In this document: positions 18,770 through 33,958 of the stretch, in pieces
Position numbering within the stretch: the stretch's first letter is position 1
Layout: every line of letters starts with the position of its first letter
Assembly (NCBI GenBank): GCA_016125225.1
Contig: WGME01000022.1
Location: 1 to 34,085, forward strand
Direction: 5' to 3'
Length of the DNA: 34,085 bases
Origin: a bacterium
Lineage (GTDB): Bacteria > Planctomycetota > Planctomycetia > Planctomycetales > Planctomycetaceae
The notes under the pieces: generated by a model
The model's input: the letters and a program-made list of their open reading frames with translations, nothing else
Database searches by the model: none
What the model was told of the DNA's origin: nothing
Made by a program: the position numbers and the translations under genes

Positions 18770-19149
18770 CGCAGCAGGCTTCTTTGCAAGAATGAAAGCA
18801 GCGGGGAGTGGCTTTATTTCGAAACGAGGGGCCACTCGTGAGTCGCTGTTGCCTGGCTGAGGAGAACAATTCCAATCGCTGGGTGAGACGTTCGAAGATA
18901 GGATTGGTGGCTGGCCCTGTCAACTTGTGGTCAATCGTTGCCTGAGCTTTAGGAGCGTTAAAGCCTTCGGTATTTCACTGAACAGTCACCCCGGAGAATC
19001 TGAGTTACGACTGACACCTCGAACCACCCCCTCAGGAGACCACACCTTAATTTTCGTGTGATTTGTCAATAACTTTCGCACCCAAAGCAGATGTTTTCAT
19101 GCTCTCGATCACGAAATTCCAAGCCACTCAGTGCTAAAGAAAAATCCCT

Positions 19150-19178
19150 CCTGGGAGCGGCCATCCGGCGCTCCCAGG
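19150..19178 (-). terminator. Hairpin remnant, paralogous to the E1 operon terminator
   Basis: CCTGGGAGCG and CGCTCCCAGG form a perfect 10-bp stem with a 9-base loop. On its minus-strand 3' side follows an AT-rich GGATTTTTCTTTAGC stretch. The hairpin, its loop letters CCATC and the flanking GCTAAAGAAAA match the terminator at 26.5 kb, so the two are copies of one ancestral segment. Confidence 0.6.
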
Positions 19179-19229
19179 GGAAGGTTGGTGTGGTGCAACT
19201 GAGACGGGTATCGTTTTCCCTAACGGATC

Positions 19230-19500
19230 GGTGGGTCTGCGACACTCAGTTCACTCCCCAGCAGATTCACCGCGAGATCGGCATCGACCGGTAGGCCGCG
19301 ATGGCAGCGGCGTAGATGGTACTCTGAGCCGTGCAACTGCCGACCTGGGCTTCCCCTGCGGAAAGAGGGTCGTCATATAGTGCCAACTACTGTCCTGATT
19401 AGTCGCGGTCAGAATCATCACGACTTCATCGTGCATCCGGCCTCAGCTCAGAACTGGCCCTGTCGCTGTACGGCTCGCCAGAGCCATCCACAGCCGTCGC
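19230..19500 (-). pseudogene. Decayed duplicate of the 3' third of the E1/ThiF-like gene
   Basis: The minus strand here aligns with the 3' part of the E1 gene at 26.6 kb. Recognisable pieces are HYMTTLFPQGKP (E1: [12 protein letters not shown]), DEVVMILTATNQDSS (E1: [14 protein letters not shown]) and, after a frame change, the C-terminal region whose antisense reads CACTCAGTTCACTCC against CACTCAACTCACTCC. It corresponds to roughly E1 residues 135-235. It carries an in-frame TGA at the position of the WADG motif, at least one frameshift and a deletion of about 40-50 bases, and no 5' half, so it cannot encode an enzyme. The remaining 18836-19691 gap, apart from the hairpin, shows nothing. Confidence 0.75.
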
Positions 19501-26570: not shown

Positions 26571-27290
26571 TCAAGATCTTCTATCGGAGACACTCAACTC
26601 ACTCCCGAGCAGATTGACCGCGAGATCGGCATCAAGGGGCAGGCCGCGGAGCCAGCGGGTGAATTGATGCACCATGAGCCCCGCGGCGATGCTGGCGGCG
26701 TAGATGGTGCTCTGCGCCGTGCAGCTGCCGACTTGGGCTTCTCCCTGCGGGAAGAGAGTCGTCGTGTAATGCCGCCCACTGGTCTCATCGGTTGCACTCA
26801 GGATCCGCAGCACTTCGCCGCGCATGCGGCCGTCGGCCCAGAACTGGCAATGGCGTTGCATTGTCCGCCAGATGGCGGCCCGCACCGAGATCGTGTCGAC
26901 ACACACAAACACCACGTCACTGATCGCCAGAGCCGGTCGATAGCGTTCCGCAATCAGCGTGAGTGACAGATCGAGCTGAAGCTCCCGCAGGGCTGCGGCC
27001 GTCGCCTCGACTTTCGATTGACCGAGGTCCGCCAGTCGATACCCCTGGGTCGTGATGTTCGTGGCTTCCACGACATCCGGATCCATCAGGTGGAGCTGCC
27101 GAGCCCCGATCGCGGCCAGTTGCAGGGCCACCTGACGGCCGATGGCCCCCACGCCGATCACGGTGATCGCGTGACGGGATAACTTCTCCTGCGGCACCAG
27201 GGCCGCCTGCCGCTGAAAGCGGTCGGTGAGAGTGATAGGAGTCTCCTTCAATCGAAACCTCTCCTTCCAAAAATCGGGATTCATGGACAT
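26571..27290 (-). CDS. E1-like adenylating enzyme (ThiF/MoeB family)
   Basis: 239 residues. E1-like enzymes use ATP to adenylate the C-terminus of a ubiquitin-like protein and usually pass it to a Cys as thioester. The Rossmann nucleotide site G46-x-G48-x-x-G51 is intact, followed by the acidic turn [10 protein letters not shown] (Asp70, Asn78), a [12 protein letters not shown] segment with Lys93 that contacts ATP, and VCVDT with Asp132. Cys190 in [12 protein letters not shown] is the best candidate for the transfer cysteine. The Zn-binding CxxC pairs of classical ThiF/MoeB are absent and the protein is short, as in E1s of bacterial ubiquitin-like operons. AAGGG lies 6 bases before the ATG. 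It is the last gene of the array; a decayed partial copy exists at 19.2-19.5 kb. Confidence 0.9.
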
Positions 27291-27886
27291 CAGTCAACCC
27301 TTCGTCTGCCAGACAACCGGCCCCCCACAGGTCATGGGGTTCCAGTCCGGGATCGATCTGCACACAGCGGTCATACTCCGCCGCCCAGCCAGCCTCGTCG
27401 GTCCCCGCAAATGGCGGCGTGAAATCGACCTCCACCGGCAGTTCGATCGCGCCCTGTGGCCCCGTGTGCCAGGCGAGCCGGGCGTAACTTGCTCCGGAAC
27501 GGGCGACGATCCCCATGACGGCCCAGTCACAGGGACCGAAGACTCGCGCGAAGGTGGCTTCATCGACGGCACTGGGCTGCGGACAGTCCCCCGGATGGGT
27601 GTGCAGCCAGAGGCGGGCGAATTCGGCCGGTTGCCGTCCGAGATCGACCTGCTGCTCGAAGTACTCCGCCAGAGCCAGGTCATCCAGCACCACCGTGGCG
27701 ATGCTGGTCCGCTGCGGGATCAGGACCACATCGGTGACGTGCAGCAGGTCAGCTTGGTGCGAAATCCCGAAGCCGCAGATCTCAGTCGGTCCCCCGATCC
27801 CGCAGCCAGAGCCATTTCGCCCAGGCGGTCGGCGTGAATCGCAACCGCGGGGATGTCCGGGGTGAGGCTCGTCTAGGTTTCGTCAT
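26917..27886 (-). CDS. JAB/JAMM metalloprotease (deubiquitinase-like), apparent frameshift
   Basis: JAB proteases cleave ubiquitin-like proteins from targets or trim their C-termini. The protein reads correctly only if two frames are joined. Frame one starts at the ATG at 27886 (GGAGG 9 bases upstream, overlapping the previous gene by 14 bases), gives [17 protein letters not shown] and stops at 27782. Frame two supplies TEICGFGIS with the JAMM glutamate, then [20 protein letters not shown], the intact H-x-H...S-x-x-D zinc site. Removing one G from the G5 run at 27791-27795 joins them exactly. Frame two stays open to 26917, 374 bases into the E1 gene, which is unlikely to be real; homology-like sequence fades near 27300, and a G6 run at 27321-27326 is a second possible slip site that would end the protein at 27294, just before the E1 start. 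A GTG-initiated short form from 27729 would lack the glutamate. Confidence 0.8.
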
Positions 27887-28814
27887 CACGCTCGTCCTCC
27901 AAATCAAGGGCCGAATTCGCCGCAACGACACATCGCGGACAGTGTTCTGGTGCGATACCGGTGGTGCGCGGCCAGCAGGCTCGACACCAGGCCGCCTCAC
28001 AGTCGTCACAGGTCCGTTGGCAACGGTGGCAGTGAGGTTCGTTGCAATCGGGACAGTCGGCGGCACAACTGTCACAGAGGTCGGTGCTACACTGTGCACA
28101 ACTGCGGCGGTCGTCGCTGGTGACCTGCGTACCGCAGTCGTGACAGGTGACTGCGAACCAGTGGGTCAGAGCCTGATAGGCACTGTCGAAGTTGTAGGTC
28201 CGCAGCACCTGCCGCAGGATCACGAAGTAATCACTCAGGCGACCCGTCGCCAGCGCGGCTTCGAGACCCAGCCAACCGTCGCCCACACACAACCGGTCGT
28301 CCAGGACATGCGGGTGGGTGAGATCATCGCGCCCGTCGGGCCGCAGGGGTTCGAGGGCCACGACCGTGAGAGCGTCATCGGTCGGCAGCCGCTCCCAGTT
28401 CCAGCGTAGGGCAAAGGGCCCGAAGTCCAAGTCCTCCAGCACGATGGCGTCGGTGGTGACCGTGAGGGTGGTGGCGGCCAGATCGAGCGTCACCTGCTCG
28501 AACTCCTGTTCCAGCCCCTGCAGTTCGTCGTAGAGCGTGCGCAAGCTGGGGACCACGGCGGTGGGCAGTCGCCGTTGCAACACCTGCAGATCGGTCTCGA
28601 ACCAGCCGAGTTGCTGCTGCCATTGGATTTGGAGATGCGCGGCCGCGGCCGACCAGCCCCGTTGACAGGCCAGTTGATAATGGATCTGCAATCGACAGAG
28701 ACGCTGCCAGCGGCCCTGGGGCAACGTGATTGCCTGCTGGTGAGACACCCGACGGGCCAACGCGGCTTGAATCGCCACCAGGCCCCGGGTGGCGGTCCGC
28801 AGATCAAGAGGCAT
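27873..28814 (-). CDS. Putative E2 (UBC-like) domain fused to a cysteine-rich RING/treble-clef-like tail
   Basis: 313 residues; AGGAG 6 bases before the ATG. Residues 1-105 are helical. Residues about 106-215 read like an E2 conjugating fold: alternating strands (TLTVTTDAIVLEDL, FALRWNWE, ALTVVALEPLRPD), then T-H-P-H-V (166-170) matching the E2 H-P-N-[IV] motif, then LCVGDGW with Cys176 in the place of the active-site Cys of E2 ICL motifs, and a C-terminal helix (DYFVILRQVLRTYN). Residues 224-295 hold 17 Cys and 2 His in repeated C-x2-C pairs (224/227, 239/242, 247/250, 254/257, 262/265, 269/272, 277/280, 292/295), consistent with cross-brace or treble-clef zinc modules as in RING E3s. Neighbouring E1, JAB and ubiquitin-like genes support the reading. 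The fusion could act as combined E2-E3. The E2 call is motif-level inference. Confidence 0.7.
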   Translation of the reverse strand: MPLDLRTATRGLVAIQAALARRVSHQQAITLPQGRWQRLCRLQIHYQLACQRGWSAAAAHLQIQWQQQLGWFETDLQVLQRRLPTAVVPSLRTLYDELQGLEQEFEQVTLDLAATTLTVTTDAIVLEDLDFGPFALRWNWERLPTDDALTVVALEPLRPDGRDDLTHPHVLDDRLCVGDGWLGLEAALATGRLSDYFVILRQVLRTYNFDSAYQALTHWFAVTCHDCGTQVTSDDRRSCAQCSTDLCDSCAADCPDCNEPHCHRCQRTCDDCEAAWCRACWPRTTGIAPEHCPRCVVAANSALDLEDERDDET

Positions 28815-28872
28815 GAGAACTCCTGAGGAAAGGAAGAAGGATGAAGGCGGAAGGAGGAAATTCCAGGCATCA

Positions 28873-28893
28873 GGTCTGAGGCATCAGGTGTCA
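28873..28893 (+). repeat. Copy of spacer repeat also found at 33.1 kb
   Basis: This 21-base element matches, at 19 of 21 positions, the reverse complement of the right arm of the inverted repeat at 33157-33178. A 14-base word, GAGTGCCCAGTGAT, follows at 28919-28932 and recurs exactly at 31496-31509. Both lie in the 191-base non-coding spacer 28815-29005 between the ubiquitin-like and E2 genes. Confidence 0.65.
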
Positions 28894-29005
28894 AGGAACA
28901 TGAGGAGTGATGAGTGTAGAGTGCCCAGTGATCAATGCCTGGTCTCTTTTCAACCTGCCTCCTTCTCCCTTCGGCCTTCAACCCTCAGCCCTGAGCCCTC
29001 AACCC

Positions 29006-29233
29006 TCAGCCTGCTTCCGCTCCCTCGATCTTGAGGGGGGTGATGGTGACGCGGTCGCCGGGTTGCAGGACGGTGTCGCCGGTCGTGGGCTGGCGGTTGA
29101 CCCGGATCAGGTAATCACCGGGTTGGCCCTGGGGCAGACGTTGCTCGAAGAGTTGCCGGACGGTGAGGCCGTCGGTGACGTCGATCTCATCGGCGAAGCC
29201 GCCACCGTCGTTGTTGATGAACAGGAGACGCAT
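29006..29233 (-). CDS. Ubiquitin-like beta-grasp protein (MoaD/ThiS-like)
   Basis: 75 residues. The expected strand-helix-strand order of a beta-grasp fold is visible: [15 protein letters not shown], helix [19 protein letters not shown], then [16 protein letters not shown], the last matching the GD-x-V-x-x-x-P ending of MoaD/ThiS proteins. It is the obvious substrate for the E1 and JAB enzymes encoded downstream. The tail ends in E-G-A-E-A-G rather than the exposed Gly-Gly of ubiquitin or MoaD, so either the terminal Gly is used directly or JAB trimming back toward the inner Gly is needed. AAGGA lies 8 bases before the ATG. It is not simply a molybdopterin or thiamin factor, since no such biosynthetic genes are nearby. 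Confidence 0.85.
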
Positions 29234-29393: not shown

Positions 29394-29834
29394 TCAGCGC
29401 TGCGGTCGGTCCGTCACCCGCTGATAGCGGGCGTGGTTGCCCGGATCGGTGTCGCCGGGCGCCGCCAGCACCAACTCAGTCTCGGTGAGCGACTGAATCA
29501 GCATGTCGGGCGTGGCAGCAGTAGGGTCAGTGGCCAGGGTCAATTCCCAGGCCCAGGGGATCGGCTGGTCGGGGTCCATGTGGACCGTCAGGGTCTGGCC
29601 TTCGACCGACCAGTTGCCGGTGAGATCGAAATCCGCTCGGGTGAGCTGGAGGATCCAGGCTCGGGATTCGAACTGTGCCCGCAACCGGCCTTCGGCTGCG
29701 AAGGTCAAGGTGAACGTCCCTTCCGGGTCGACCCGAGACCAGGTGCCGATCAGCCGCTGGGCGGTCGACGGAGGGGACGGGGCACAACCGGCCAGAGTGA
29801 GCGTCAGGAACAGCAACAACAGTCGAGAGAGCAT
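29394..29834 (-). CDS. Lipoprotein with lipocalin-like beta-rich domain
   Basis: 146 residues. The signal peptide [17 protein letters not shown] ends in a lipobox L-A-G-C, so the mature protein is lipid-anchored outside the cytoplasm. The rest is beta-rich: [28 protein letters not shown] resembles the first strands of small lipocalin-like or META-type domains (GxW near the start), then [14 protein letters not shown] and [18 protein letters not shown] lies about 8 bases before the start. An exported lipoprotein is unexpected in an array of cytoplasmic conjugation genes; spacing and orientation nonetheless place it in the same transcript. Function unknown. Confidence 0.75.
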
Positions 29835-29889: not shown

Positions 29890-30084
29890 TCAGACAGGGC
29901 AGAACAGAACGGCCCGTTCGGCGTCGACGAGATCCCAGTCGATCACCAGGGGCTGGCGGTCGTCATCGCAGTGGTGAGTGGCATCCGGAGTGAGGCTCAG
30001 CAGGCTGAAGCCCTGCCGCTGGATGGTGGTCAGGTCGTCGCCGGTGGCCCGGACGATGGCCGCGTCGAGTTGGGTTTGAGTCAT
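29890..30084 (-). CDS. Small conserved-looking protein in the ubiquitin-like array
   Basis: 64 residues from the ATG at 30084, with GGAA about 11 bases upstream. The sequence is compact: an N-terminal helix (TQTQLDAAIVRATGDDLTTIQRQGFSLL) resembling a short helix-turn-helix-like or adaptor helix pair, then an acidic part with IDWDLVDAERAVLF. Small proteins with the R-x-G-F-S-L ... DWD pattern are, as far as I recall, common hypothetical proteins in Planctomycetota. No catalytic residue is evident. It is the first gene after the internal hairpin at 30116-30157, so it would be first in the conjugation half of the array. Confidence 0.65.
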   Translation of the reverse strand: MTQTQLDAAIVRATGDDLTTIQRQGFSLLSLTPDATHHCDDDRQPLVIDWDLVDAERAVLFCPV

Positions 30085-30190: not shown

Positions 30191-30430
30191 TCAGTCACTG
30201 CCGTGGAGATGCTGCTGCGTCAGCCAGGCGACTTCGGCGGCCAGCGCGGCACTCCGCCTCGGATAAGGCCCCAGTCGGGGCCCATTGATGATCTGGGCCC
30301 ACCAGTCGCCATGAGGATCAGGTTCGATGTGGCTGGCCCGGGTGATGGTTAGAGTTCCGAGGGCAGTGAGATCGAACGTTTCGTCATAGAGGGTGGTGAT
30401 CTGACCCTCGGGATGAATCCGCAGTTCCAT
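30191..30430 (-). CDS. Small protein of unknown function
   Basis: 79 residues, starting at the ATG at 30430 in a TGATG overlap with the upstream stop codon, so translation is coupled to the 322-aa protein. It begins with a beta-rich part (MELRIHPEGQITTLYDETFDL, TLTITRASHIEPDPHGDWWAQI) followed by a short helix with GPYPRRSAALAAEVAWLTQQHL. The pattern ending in R-x-A-A-L-A-A-E-V-A-W-L is one I recall from other planctomycete small proteins. No enzyme motif is seen. It is the last gene before the internal terminator. Confidence 0.75.
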   Translation of the reverse strand: MELRIHPEGQITTLYDETFDLTALGTLTITRASHIEPDPHGDWWAQIINGPRLGPYPRRSAALAAEVAWLTQQHLHGSD

Positions 30431-31398
30431 CAATGCGTCTCCCGCGGTGTGGGGCGTTGAATCGCCCGCCGAGGGCGATCCACCAGCAGCCCTTCCAGGC
30501 TGGCCTGCACGCCGGCCAGTTGCGTGGCGACCTGCTGCCGCAGGCTGGTGCTGGTGCGCAGCTGCTGCGGCTGGACACCCCGCACAATCTGCTGGGCCTG
30601 ATCGACCAGCTGTTCGAGCTCGGCCTGTGAGCCGATCTCGAGATGGCGGAACCGCTCGAAGAAGGCCCGCAGATTGTCGACGGCTGAATCCCGAAAGACT
30701 TTCGGGGTCCCATGCTCCGAACCGGAGAGGCGTTCGGTCAGATGGCCGATGACCTGCGCGAACTCCTCCAGAAAGGCCTGTTCCGCCAGTGAGACTGCTT
30801 CGGTAAACCGCTGCTGCACCCGCTGGCATTCGGCCGCATAGAGGTCGGGATTCAATTGCGCGAGATACGGCGGGGGCTCCACACTCGGAAACTCCCAGCT
30901 CAGACCGAATTCGTGGTTGAGAGTCGCCGGATAATCGGTGGCGTTATACAGCTCACCGAGCCGCACCCGGGCCGCCTGTCGCAGTTCGGCATAGACCTCA
31001 TCGAGGGCCAGCACGGCGGCCTGCAGGTCGTGTTGCCACTGCTGCAACTGGGCGGCAAAGCCGCTCAGATCCTGCTGCCGCATCAGCCGCAGTCCCGGCT
31101 CCGGATAGGGCAACGTGCGGGCTTTCCAGGTCTGGGTGATCTGACCCCGCAGCGCCGTCACCGCCTGATAGGCGGGGTGCGTCGTATCAAGCAGCTTCTT
31201 GGCCGCCGAGACATACTTCGCCGCCGCCCCGAAGGCTTCGGCGGCCTGGGCTTTCTGCGCGGCCGACAGGGCTCGGCGCACGCCGAACCAGGTGAAACTC
31301 AATTTCGTGGCCGCCATCGTACGGCGTAACTGCGTGGCATAGTCGGTCGTGGTTGTAGACGCGCGAACCGGGGGCGGCTCCGCCAACGTGGGAGGCAT
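30430..31398 (-). CDS. 322-aa helical protein of unknown function (DUF3150-like resemblance)
   Basis: 322 residues from the ATG at 31398; GAAAGGA lies 7 bases upstream, whereas the frame open beyond it is made of spacer repeat. The protein is almost entirely helical: WFGVRRALSAAQKAQAAEAFGAAAKYVSAAKKLLD near 38-70, LPYPEPGLRLM near 95, long helices around 110-150, a central ELYNATDYPATLNHEFGLSWEFPSVEPPPY segment, and C-terminal coiled-coil-like helices. The general pattern (long helical, encoded beside an AAA ATPase) recalls DUF3150-type proteins found next to MoxR/AAA genes in phages and bacteria, but I cannot confirm membership. A substrate adaptor or partner of the AAA ATPase encoded upstream is plausible. 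Confidence 0.75.
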   Translation of the reverse strand: MPPTLAEPPPVRASTTTTDYATQLRRTMAATKLSFTWFGVRRALSAAQKAQAAEAFGAAAKYVSAAKKLLDTTHPAYQAVTALRGQITQTWKARTLPYPEPGLRLMRQQDLSGFAAQLQQWQHDLQAAVLALDEVYAELRQAARVRLGELYNATDYPATLNHEFGLSWEFPSVEPPPYLAQLNPDLYAAECQRVQQRFTEAVSLAEQAFLEEFAQVIGHLTERLSGSEHGTPKVFRDSAVDNLRAFFERFRHLEIGSQAELEQLVDQAQQIVRGVQPQQLRTSTSLRQQVATQLAGVQASLEGLLVDRPRRAIQRPTPRETH

Positions 31399-31500: not shown

Positions 31501-31569
31501 CCCAGTGATTTCTCTGCGGTCGGGCTTTCTGTTGTCCACTTTGGGCTTTCCGCTCGGAATTTTTCCTCC
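31501..31569 (-). repeat. 69-bp spacer repeat, copy 2 (inverted relative to copy 1)
   Basis: The reverse complement of this segment matches 33890-33958 at 63 of 69 positions. It lies in the non-coding spacer 31399-31582 between the AAA and 322-aa genes. Both copies also show the same reading when translated (K-I-P-S-G-K-P-K), which is a by-product of the repeat rather than evidence of coding. Confidence 0.85.
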
Positions 31570-31582
31570 TTTCCTCCCCCCC

Positions 31583-33040
31583 TCAATTGCTTGACGGATG
31601 CACTTTGCGGCGGCTGGGGGCACGGCCCGGGGGTTGATAGATGCCGGGTTGTTCGGCCGACAGGCAGCGGCCTTGCGCCCAGTCGCGGAGGGACGTGATA
31701 CTGTCGGCGGCGGTGATCGCCACCGGGACGATGTTGCGGGCGGCTTCGGTTAACGAGATCTCCAGCAGGGCCGCCAAGCGGCAGCAGCTGGCGATCTCGG
31801 CTCCGGTCCACGGATCATCGGGTGGGGTAGGTTGCGATGCCGGGATGTCATACTGCTGGCGATAACGAGTCCAGATCTGCTGACGCTGTGCGGGGCCTGG
31901 CAGATCGACGAAAAAGACCCCGTCGAGCCGTTCCGCCCGTGTGAATTCGGGAGGTAACCGGCGGATGTCATTCGCCGTTCCCACGAAGAAGACATCGGAG
32001 GTGTGTTCCGCCAGCCAGGTCAGTAAGGTCCCGAAGAGCCGGGTGGAGACCCCGGAATCGCCGGTGGACTGCAAGCCCGACAGCCCCTTTTCGAGTTCAT
32101 CCACAAACAGAATCGCGGGAGCCAGAGCGTCAGCGATGGCCAACGCCTGTCGGAGGTTCCGTTCGCTTTCGCCCATCAGCGAACCGAGCAACCGGCCGAT
32201 GTCGAGTGACAGGACCGGACGACCGACTTCGGCCCCGAGCGCACGGCAGAAGAGCGATTTGCCGCAGCCGGGGGGTGAGACCAGCAAGACACCCCGGGCC
32301 TTCACTGTTCGTCCGGGTGACAGGGCTCGACGGCAGAAGTCTTTCAAGGCGGTGAAGCCGCCGATCGCCGCAAAGGTCTCGGTCGACGGCGACAGCGTCA
32401 AAAGGTTCTGCGACTTGAGGGTCTGGGCTTTGAGTTCCCAGATCGCGGCCGGTTCGAGTTGCCCCGTGCGGGCCAGCGAGAGGGCGAAGGCCCCTTCGGC
32501 CTCACTGCGCGTCAGACCCCGGGCCGCATCGAGCACCAGCGCCCGCGCTGGACCGGTGAGCGGAGCTTCCGGGGTGAGTTCATCGGCAATCTGCCCCAGC
32601 TGCGCCCGATCAGGCAACGCATGTTCCAGTACCACGAACTGCCGGGCCAGTTCGACGGGCAACTGCACCACCGGCGCGAGAATCACCACGCAGGTTCGCA
32701 GGGTCTTGCCGAGTTGCAACTGGTGCAACAGGGCCTGCACGACCTCGGGGCTCTGCAGAAACCGCTGAAAGTGCGGCAGCACCAGCAGTGCGGTCCCCTC
32801 GGGAGTGGCCAGCGATGGCAGACATCGCAGCGCAGTGAGGGGATCCAGAGCGGTCGGCAACGGGCTGCTGGTCCCCGTGACCTGCCACCCCTGTTCGAGG
32901 TCCCAGGTGGCTAAAGTCCAATCTTCCTGGCGGCTGAGAGCCGTCAGTTCGCGCAGGGCTTCGTGGGGTTCGAGCGTTTCAATCCACAGGCCGCTGAACG
33001 CCGCCCGCAGATACTCGGGTAAGGTGTCGGTAAGGGACAT
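31583..33040 (-). CDS. AAA ATPase, Ycf46-like
   Basis: 485 residues from the ATG at 33040. Residues 1-190 form a degenerate N-terminal domain (LLVLPHFQRFLQSPEVVQAL, TCVVILAPVVQLPVEL, VLEHALPD) typical of Ycf46-like proteins, which look like an inactive RecA-like lobe before the real one. The active AAA domain follows: IGGFTALKDF near 227, Walker A S-P-P-G-C-G-K-S at 255-262, an MGESERNLRQAL pore/helix region, Walker B AILFVDELEKGL near 309-320, sensor-1 Asn in FVGTANDI and arginine candidates in FTRAERLDGVFFVDLPG. Ycf46 proteins are encoded in cyanobacteria, plastids of some algae and other bacteria, with unclear function. Here it likely remodels or unfolds a client linked to the neighbouring genes. 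Confidence 0.9.
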   Translation of the reverse strand: MSLTDTLPEYLRAAFSGLWIETLEPHEALRELTALSRQEDWTLATWDLEQGWQVTGTSSPLPTALDPLTALRCLPSLATPEGTALLVLPHFQRFLQSPEVVQALLHQLQLGKTLRTCVVILAPVVQLPVELARQFVVLEHALPDRAQLGQIADELTPEAPLTGPARALVLDAARGLTRSEAEGAFALSLARTGQLEPAAIWELKAQTLKSQNLLTLSPSTETFAAIGGFTALKDFCRRALSPGRTVKARGVLLVSPPGCGKSLFCRALGAEVGRPVLSLDIGRLLGSLMGESERNLRQALAIADALAPAILFVDELEKGLSGLQSTGDSGVSTRLFGTLLTWLAEHTSDVFFVGTANDIRRLPPEFTRAERLDGVFFVDLPGPAQRQQIWTRYRQQYDIPASQPTPPDDPWTGAEIASCCRLAALLEISLTEAARNIVPVAITAADSITSLRDWAQGRCLSAEQPGIYQPPGRAPSRRKVHPSSN

Positions 33041-33093
33041 GGGGGTCTCGGGAAGGAGGAAATGGGAAGGGAGAAAGAGGAAAAGAGGCATAA

Positions 33094-33843: not shown

Positions 33844-33889
33844 GAGGGACCTTTCGGTTGAGGGGGGAGGGGAGAGGCAGAAGGAGGCA

Positions 33890-33958
33890 GGAGGAAAAAT
33901 ACCGAGCGGAAAGCCGAAAGCGGACAGCAGAAAGCCAGACCGCAGAGTAATCACTGGG
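33890..33958 (+). repeat. 69-bp spacer repeat, copy 1
   Basis: Matches the reverse complement of 31501-31569 at 63 of 69 positions. With that copy it brackets the DUF1257-DUF2997-AAA module in inverted orientation. It ends at the boundary with the insertion element. Confidence 0.85.

Follow-up and report, generated by a model that had tools for sequence, protein, structure and literature searches.

The 34,085-base stretch of planctomycete DNA studied here (the window, which is the entire contig C11 of a 6.35 Mb genome of 42 contigs) carries an eight-gene operon encoding, in order, an AAA ATPase, a DUF3150-like protein (CC), two small proteins (S1 and S2), a ubiquitin-like modifier (Ubl), an E2-type protein with a cysteine-rich tail (E2-zinc), a JAB/JAMM peptidase and an E1-type adenylating enzyme. 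We consider it likely that this operon is a cassette for Ubl conjugation and removal, carried by integrating elements or phages and coupled to an AAA+ unfoldase module. This reading builds on the predicted folds of the Ubl and the E2-type protein, on invariant catalytic-type residues, purifying selection and gene order, and on the mobile and viral context of relatives; the thioester relay, the conjugation to lysine, the trimming by the JAB and the coupling to the AAA protein that it entails would follow from what is known of the respective families. The presence of close relatives beside integration genes and on virus-like DNA suggests that bacterial viruses may use ubiquitin-style tagging.

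All of the operon genes lie on the minus strand. A preliminary description of the window had proposed four of them, for a beta-grasp protein, an E2 joined to a RING-like module, a JAMM protease and a ThiF/E1-like enzyme, as a complete set. The Ubl, E2-zinc and ThiF genes are indeed intact open reading frames (ORFs), but the JAB is not a single gene, being split across frames, and the span described holds only the 3' half of the unit, since S2, S1, DUF3150-like and AAA genes lie upstream of the Ubl, reaching position 33043. Among 48 loci counted (the window, 40 E2-type loci and 7 of a further 11), the Ubl-E2-zinc-JAB-E1 order is complete in 43; four of the others (L038, L052, L053, L061) are cut by contig ends, and in L050 no JAB or E1 was seen although the contig continues. 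All eight genes are present in 31 of the 48 (30 by a stricter listing, together with L048, where S2 was seen separately); the AAA gene is in pieces in L039, L051 and L121.

The same genome holds a second copy of the operon on contig C22 (locus L033), the E2 protein of which is 94% identical to that of the window. The ratio of nonsynonymous to synonymous substitution rates (dN/dS) between the two copies is 0.17 for the Ubl, 0.14 for E2-zinc, 0.17 for E1, 0.09 for CC, 0.11 for S1, 0.22 for S2 and 0.12 for a lipoprotein-like gene; values this low (0.09-0.22) imply that all seven genes are under selection at the protein level.

Components of the operon

The Ubl (75 amino acids (aa); 29006..29233) ends in KIEGA followed by a three-residue tail. 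Its proposed identity as a beta-grasp modifier is consistent with the AlphaFold model, a single domain with the ubiquitin fold (predicted local distance difference test score, pLDDT, 90.5), and with a Foldseek search of the PDB, in which all 50 of the 50 listed matches are ubiquitin-fold chains, as judged from titles and lengths. The best E value was 1.6e-4, with 2 of 1479 matches at E 0.001 or better, and the best fold matches include Caldiarchaeum ubiquitin, TtuB, ThiS and SAMP1. In Pfam the nearest family is ThiS, below the cut-off (E 0.0011), and a sequence profile of the Ubl gave three matches in the PDB, among them one weak match to MoaD (E 0.98). The C terminus of the planctomycete Ubls follows the pattern TPxK/R-IEGA, in which Gly71 and Ala72 are invariant (29/29); six of the 29 sequences end exactly at IEGA and the remainder carry a C-terminal tail. 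The Ubl is thus predicted to be a beta-grasp modifier with a C-terminal glycine region, as expected of bacterial Ubl conjugation operons.

E2-zinc (313 aa; 27873..28814) comprises N-terminal helices, a core resembling ubiquitin-conjugating (UBC) domains at approximately residues 91-206 (28197-28544), and a zinc-knuckle tail from residue 224. Its AlphaFold model (pLDDT 87.6) has its elements arranged in the UBC order between residues 91 and 206, with a helix at 91-104, strands up to 153, Cys176 and helices at 178-189 and 193-204. By title and length, 44 of the 50 listed Foldseek matches in the PDB are E2 enzymes (UFC1, CDC34, UBE2S and others); the remaining six are one LIM, one PHD and one RIM zinc finger, together with a gp41 mimetic, a microtubule doublet chain and a retron protein. 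Cys176 (codon at 28287-28289) is invariant in 35 of 35 sequences, within the motif H(P/S)H(V/I)-x4-(L/V)C-x-G. The UBC fold put forward in the preliminary description therefore receives support from the model and the listed matches, the latter weak in E value, and Cys176 is presumably the catalytic residue. A lack of UBC-fold matches, the refuting outcome set in that description, did not arise.

The RING-like module fared less well. The tail has ten CxxC pairs in 25 of 35 proteins and eight in the window's protein, with usual gaps between pairs of 11, 4, 3, 4, 3, 4, 3, 4 and 5 residues, and of 11, 4, 3, 4, 3, 4 and 11 in the window; eight pairs compare with a mean of 2.1 and a maximum of 5 in 2000 shuffled tails. 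The canonical RING pattern, as given in the available text of one account (PMC11354881), is C-x2-C-x(9-39)-C-x(1-3)-H-x(2-3)-C-x2-C-x(4-48)-C-x2-C. The tail departs from its spacing at two places, the gap from the fourth to the fifth ligand being 4 (2-3 is needed) and that from the sixth to the seventh being 3 (4-48 is needed); its ligand pairs are all Cys-Cys, with no His at ligand positions, and Pfam searches at E up to 1 gave no RING match in 35 members. A RING assignment was accordingly downgraded. Profile matches in the PDB to treble-clef proteins (MID1, E 0.002; TRIM21, 0.03; WDFY3, 0.07) are consistent with the tail being, as judged from its sequence, a zinc-knuckle array with a treble-clef resemblance.

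The E1 (239 aa; 26571..27290) consists of a single ThiF domain (Pfam ThiF, E 6.4e-25), and its profile matches PaaA, MccB, MoeB, ThiF, UBA5 and BubCD in the PDB. In an alignment of 28 sequences 42 columns are invariant, with Cys190, Asp132, Gly46 and Gly48 conserved in all 28. The ThiF/E1-like assignment of the preliminary description thus appears sound, the protein having the ATP-binding-type residues and the cysteine of a putative ThiF-type activating enzyme. A decayed remnant of an E1 3'-end, 69-87% identical to live copies, lies at 19133-19482 on the minus strand of the window, a sign of an older operon copy on the same contig.

In the window, the JAMM motif (HTHP-x5-PS-x2-D) of the JAB lies in an ORF at 26917..27729, which runs out of frame over the E1 start, and the conserved N-terminal part, before the catalytic Glu, lies at 27782..27886 in a different frame, with the split near position 27800. 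The JAMM protease first described is therefore recognizable by its motif but not as a single intact gene. The N terminus in relatives reads LRFSPTAWAKLLFLRD-x-G-x-TEVGGFGI and contains the Glu presumed to be catalytic; when the motifs were matched strictly, this Glu motif and the JAMM motif shared one frame in 37 of 46 JAB ORFs, and the JAB of the second copy in the same genome (C22) is continuous in a single frame. The window belongs to the nine that fail this strict test, true breaks, pattern misses and clipped ORFs not being distinguished for the other eight. In 30 of 37 loci the JAB gene stops somewhere from 56 nucleotides (nt) inside the E1 gene to 68 nt ahead of its start. A profile of eight relatives, with no window row, has weak similarity to RPN11 (E 0.006). 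One or more extra genes of 140-240 aa lie between JAB and E1 (a gap of 740-820 nt) in L054, L057, L035 and L037; that of L035 matches DUF6915 and that of L054 has no Pfam match.

The AAA+ ATPase (486 aa; 31583..33043) is the first gene of the operon. It matches Pfam AAA (E 1.7e-25) and, as a profile against the PDB, AFG2/CDC48/p97 (E down to 1.5e-50), and on these alignments it is a p97/AFG2-like ATPase core; it also matches, near full length, the phage family phrog_8638, to which no function is assigned (E 2e-79). A 70-nt inverted repeat, 91% complementary, flanks the AAA gene (31501-31570 and 33889-33958), and related stretches occur at the contig ends of other operon copies. Contigs C8, C22 and C33 have fragments of AAA genes at their ends, which indicates that the genome has more than one operon copy and that the assembly breaks within copies.

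No Pfam family clearly names CC (322 aa; 30430..31398); tblastn matches it to plasmid genes annotated DUF3150, and hhalign aligns it with plasmid DUF3150-type proteins (probability 99.9, 243 columns), a comparison that identifies it at the sequence level as their homologue. S1 (79 aa; 30191..30430) and S2 (64 aa; 29890..30084; motif T-G-E...GF) are recognized from alignments of 21 and 23 sequences, respectively, and from their conserved operon positions. The lipoprotein-like gene between S2 and the Ubl (29394..29834), so called from its N terminus, is confined, among the loci compared, to this genome's two copies, and its weak match to TIGR03066 is far below the cut-off.

The AAA and CC genes also occur apart from the Ubl genes. 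In 35 CC loci chosen for the absence of an E2 match (L157-L191), AAA is present in 31, and Ubl, E2, JAB and E1 were found within 7 kb in none; operons with an AAA-DUF3150-S1-S2 type of layout but without Ubl genes are among them. Thus, the AAA-DUF3150-like module seems to be common to the Ubl cassette and another cassette. Downstream, 21 of the 35 carry a gene of cluster F1, which mixes two families: a PDDEXK nuclease (Pfam E 1e-30, in some operons) and a family of approximately 450 aa without a Pfam match, which may be sliding-clamp-like. Another AAA-DUF3150 arrangement is seen on a Manganitrophus plasmid (L193), where JAB, AAA, DUF1257, DUF2997 and DUF3150 genes lie close together.

Distribution, mobile context and viral relatives

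Within the order, the E2 protein has matches, some partial, in 41 of 150 genomes, with up to six E2 copies per genome; the Ubl is found in 36, all of them among the 41, and CC in 63. A phylum-wide draw gave a full-length E2 relative in at least 13 of 392 genomes, a lower bound because at most five candidates were scored per genome. A further 14 of the 27 matching genomes were not counted, their matches being partial and mostly to the cysteine-rich tail, and an apparent relative in Acidimicrobiia (L003) was set aside, since its match covers 50 residues and no such gene was seen in the stretch read.

Using hidden Markov models built from a single tyrosine recombinase and a single serine recombinase, we found an integrase or serine recombinase in 21 of 47 E2-type loci (732 kb; some of these loci are near-copies of each other and not all are independent) versus none of 20 control regions (360 kb), which were placed at round-number coordinates within ten of these genomes. 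Of the 35 CC loci without Ubl genes, eight have a recombinase. Among the 25 of 46 Pfam families listed for 81 neighbouring proteins, the commonest were Phage_integrase (8) and Resolvase (7).

Searches of IMG/VR gave five loci with the Ubl profile and 20 with the E1 profile. We examined 21 viral loci, leaving out same-contig repeats (L236, L237, L239) and a contig-end Ubl (L221); L230 and L231 represent a single stretch that is present on two contigs. Ubl, E2, JAB and E1 stand in order at 20 of the 21, L244 having E1 only. The frequency of recombinases, together with the order kept on viral contigs, makes the cassette look mobile. AAA relatives are present in 8 of the 21 records, 6 of them strong, and CC occurs with AAA on five viral contigs. 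The predicted phage records with the cassette extend to 180 kb. Genes of phage replication type lie next to it: among the 25 of 87 families listed for 79 neighbouring proteins are HNH endonucleases, a DnaB-like helicase, an RNA ligase, a UvsX-like recombinase and a DNA polymerase. The L226 contig has a terminase match above the cut-off and all eight genes in the planctomycete order. In a tree of 58 E1 rows (L231 left out), the 28 planctomycete rows and two viral rows (L226 and L235) form one group (support 100/100) nested within a wider set of viral rows, with the PRTRC E1s outside (100/99); the L226 E1 groups with that of the window (90/95).

The viral Ubls vary at their ends, with KIDGG-SIL in L222, IDGG in L245, and GA, GN, GS or other forms elsewhere. 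A 221-aa protein encoded by L224/L225 contains three Ubl-type matches, of which two are full INNDG...KV(Q/E)GA repeats, and L230 encodes another triple Ubl. The tandem repeats ending KVQGA/KVEGA and the GG ends of L222 and L245 point to G-A/G-G as the mature end, and the poly-Ubl sequences would look like precursors cut after G-A or G-G. L224/L225 (on the contigs of L246/L247, 79.8 and 66.2 kb) have two E2-JAB-E1 sets side by side, the triple Ubl and, between them, a gene for a 773-aa ATPase, read as Rad50-like; the E2-type protein of the second set has no HPH-Cys motif.

Named phages gave 78 records with ThiF relatives of the viral E1, nearly all partial (one covers 80% of the query), and no match to the viral E2 or to CC; an E2 relative was likewise not found on plasmids. 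Three named-phage regions have a JAMM motif adjoining ThiF in two cases and an E2 motif in none. In L254 and L256 (named viruses from animal faeces) a JAMM-motif gene directly precedes a ThiF gene, near primase genes, and this gene pair without an E2 motif is perhaps a simpler phage relative.

Proposed mechanism and alternative explanations

In the mechanism we propose, the JAB would first trim the Ubl tail where one follows, and the E1, probably a homodimer as in MoeB/ThiF, would adenylate the Ubl C terminus at EG-A (GG in two phage relatives). The Ubl would then pass from Cys190 of E1 to Cys176 of E2; the zinc-knuckle tail of the latter may hold the substrate, such that a separate E3 would be unneeded, and the Ubl would be joined to a lysine. 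The JAB would also remove the Ubl from its target, and the AAA ATPase with its DUF3150-like partner may extract or unfold tagged proteins. Our guess is that the element or phage benefits and not the cell, through take-over of the host, replication or maintenance.

Several points weigh against a conjugation cassette of this type. Its basis is entirely computational, consisting of sequence analyses and models. The planctomycete Ubls terminate in GA rather than GG. The E2-zinc fold matches are weak (E 0.06-1, target template modelling scores of approximately 0.3-0.5, 0 of 271 at E 0.001), a sequence profile of E2-zinc against the PDB found no E2, and Pfam searches of the 35 members at E up to 1, with HMMER filters that drop most weak matches, gave no RING, UBC, RWD or Prok-E2 match, the single exception being IBR in one member (E 0.17). 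With its JAB split, the window's copy may not deconjugate. Coupling to the AAA protein is not obligatory, as Ubl operons without AAA, CC and S1 occur (L112, L113, L114), as do operons with AAA and DUF3150-like genes but without Ubl genes. There is no integrase match on the window contig; contig C33, which its upstream end matches (90%), encodes a serine recombinase of 706 aa still further upstream, where the window contig would already have ended. The viral loci were found via the Ubl or E1, and the presence of those genes thus reflects selection; the IMG/VR records are predicted viruses, some of which could be plasmids or misassigned. Terminase_6N, found at E 0.001 in 6 of 21 viral records (4 above the cut-off), is a weak test, being missing from 15 and present in 6 of 14 ordinary control genomes. 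In the E1 tree the root lies on the long PRTRC branch, long branches meet and the bootstrap is not settled.

A more specific proposal, which we regard as a fair possibility that stops somewhat short of probable, is that large phages carry the Ubl-E2-zinc-JAB-E1 cassette, sometimes with the p97-like AAA and DUF3150-like genes, that planctomycetes acquired copies from such elements, and that viruses tag host or virion proteins with it. Alternatively, the Ubl genes may serve the maintenance of the element, as a cassette like plasmid PRTRC acting in replication or segregation. We find this doubtful, though the least so of the alternatives: the gene order equals PRTRC C-(F)-B-A-ThiF, the PRTRC plasmids pBMC401 and pRK1-1 also have genes for an ATPase and a DUF3150-type protein, CC is a homologue of such DUF3150-type proteins and a PDDEXK nuclease is present in some sister operons, but PRTRC C, B and A were not matched by the profiles of the Ubl, E2 and JAB (alignments of 4-7 rows) and there is no ParB in the operon.

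The portions of the literature available to us treat bacterial Ubl conjugation chiefly in terms of cellular defence or stress response (PMC13373217, PMC10097602), and both Bil, an E1/E2/Ubl/JAB operon, and Bub are described there as immune pathways, known or putative (PMC11354881, PMC13373217). A cellular anti-phage or stress system of the Bil, Bub or CBASS kind, riding mobile islands and placing the Ubl on phage proteins, would fit the integrase-rich surroundings, which resemble defence islands, and partial matches of E1 to Citrobacter BubCD (E 3e-10) and to PADLOC E1-E2 models (E 1e-14), of JAB to PADLOC JAB (E 7e-5) and of AAA to IetA (E 6e-11), the last two also over part of the protein. 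It nevertheless seems unlikely, given that the same cassette is on 20 of 21 viral-contig loci, that viral E1s surround the planctomycete group, that PADLOC has no match for the Ubl, E2 or CC, and that only one restriction-type family, with one protein, is among the 25 of 46 neighbour families listed, recombinases and transposases being the commonest. Much the least probable, and in our view very improbable, is a sulfur-carrier pathway in which ThiF activates a ThiS/MoaD-like Ubl and the other proteins release or use sulfur, with no protein tagging. In its favour, ThiS is the Pfam family closest to the Ubl (E 0.0011), and the E1 is nearest to ThiF/MoeB; however, in 43 of 48 loci the operon also encodes a JAMM peptidase and a predicted E2 whose cysteine is invariant, and a scan of nine operon proteins gave, E1 itself excepted, no match to a cysteine desulfurase, a rhodanese or a cofactor gene.

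If a mobile or phage-borne conjugation cassette is indeed what these genes encode, ubiquitin-type tagging would be found also on the side of the virus, in a compact, testable system with parts of its own (an E2 that incorporates a zinc module, an enzyme for removal and an unfoldase linked to them) that has spread beside integrases; phages would have polyubiquitin-like precursors, and a possible route by which the cassette moves between genomes would be indicated.

Comparison with known systems

Operons of this kind, i.e. bacterial Ubl operons, are known; the eight-gene unit, its mobile setting and its viral relatives were not found in the literature searched. No phage-borne cassette of this kind was among the papers listed by that search, which mostly did not cover subscription papers. 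The type 6d operons we take, by content and hosts, to be those later named the PRTRC cassette. Iyer et al. 2006 (PMC1779556), in the text available, describe the 6d class as stand-alone Ubl/E2/JAB/E1 operons, note their mobility and suggest addiction or protection roles; the likeness to the present operon lies in that mobility and in a small stand-alone Ubl with separate E2, JAB and E1 in one operon. According to the same portion of that source, 6d E2s are without the classical His, whereas planctomycete E2-zinc has an invariant H-P/S-H, the JABs of 6d begin with an alpha+beta domain, and the extra partner is an alpha-helical protein rather than the AAA and DUF3150-like proteins seen here. The zinc tail on the planctomycete E2 is a further difference.

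Compared with PRTRC on plasmids pBMC401 and pRK1-1, the order is the same, with Ubl-E2-JAB-E1 corresponding to C-(F)-B-A-ThiF, and the ATPase and DUF3150-type genes of those plasmids lie further down from the PRTRC genes. Identity with PRTRC was dropped: the E1 scores 36.5 bits against the NCBIfam PRTRC ThiF model (cut-off 144.75), the Ubl, E2 and JAB have no match to the NCBIfam PRTRC models at E up to 1, hhalign against PRTRC A, B and C gave probabilities of 1.4, 0.7 and 0.1% with shallow alignments of 4-7 rows, and no ParB, PRTRC E or PRTRC F match was found among the nine operon proteins scanned.

RING-containing prokaryotic operons were reportedly described by Burroughs et al. in 2011, and that work may already describe this planctomycete family. 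As far as the available account goes, those operons are alike in having E1, E2, JAB, Ubl and RING/treble-clef zinc domains, and Planctomycetes are named. Bacteria including Planctomycetes are, in the accessible part of another report (PMC4197634), which cites Burroughs et al. 2011 on this point, said to carry operons related to the archaeal five-gene set.

Bil, in the sections available, combines inactive and active adenylation domains in its E1 and two Ubl domains in BilA (PMC11354881); the 239-aa E1 with a single ThiF domain and the one-domain, 75-aa Ubl described here differ from both. Bub operons share the character of a bacterial Ubl pathway, compared here by the partial E1 match to BubCD only (E 2.8e-10), and phage protection by them is, according to the available text, undemonstrated (PMC13373217). 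Type II CBASS, which has a CD-NTase and a Cap2 protein fusing E1 and E2, differs in that E1 and E2 are here separate genes and no CD-NTase match was found among the nine proteins scanned. The Caldiarchaeum ubiquitin set has been reconstituted, and its JAMM protein trims the tail of the Ubl precursor, according to the portion of the report available (PMC5654768). As in the planctomycete operon, the Ubl, E1, E2 and JAMM genes of Caldiarchaeum lie together; on the same partial evidence its RING is a separate gene, whereas the planctomycete zinc module is part of the E2 chain and an AAA-DUF3150-like module has been added.

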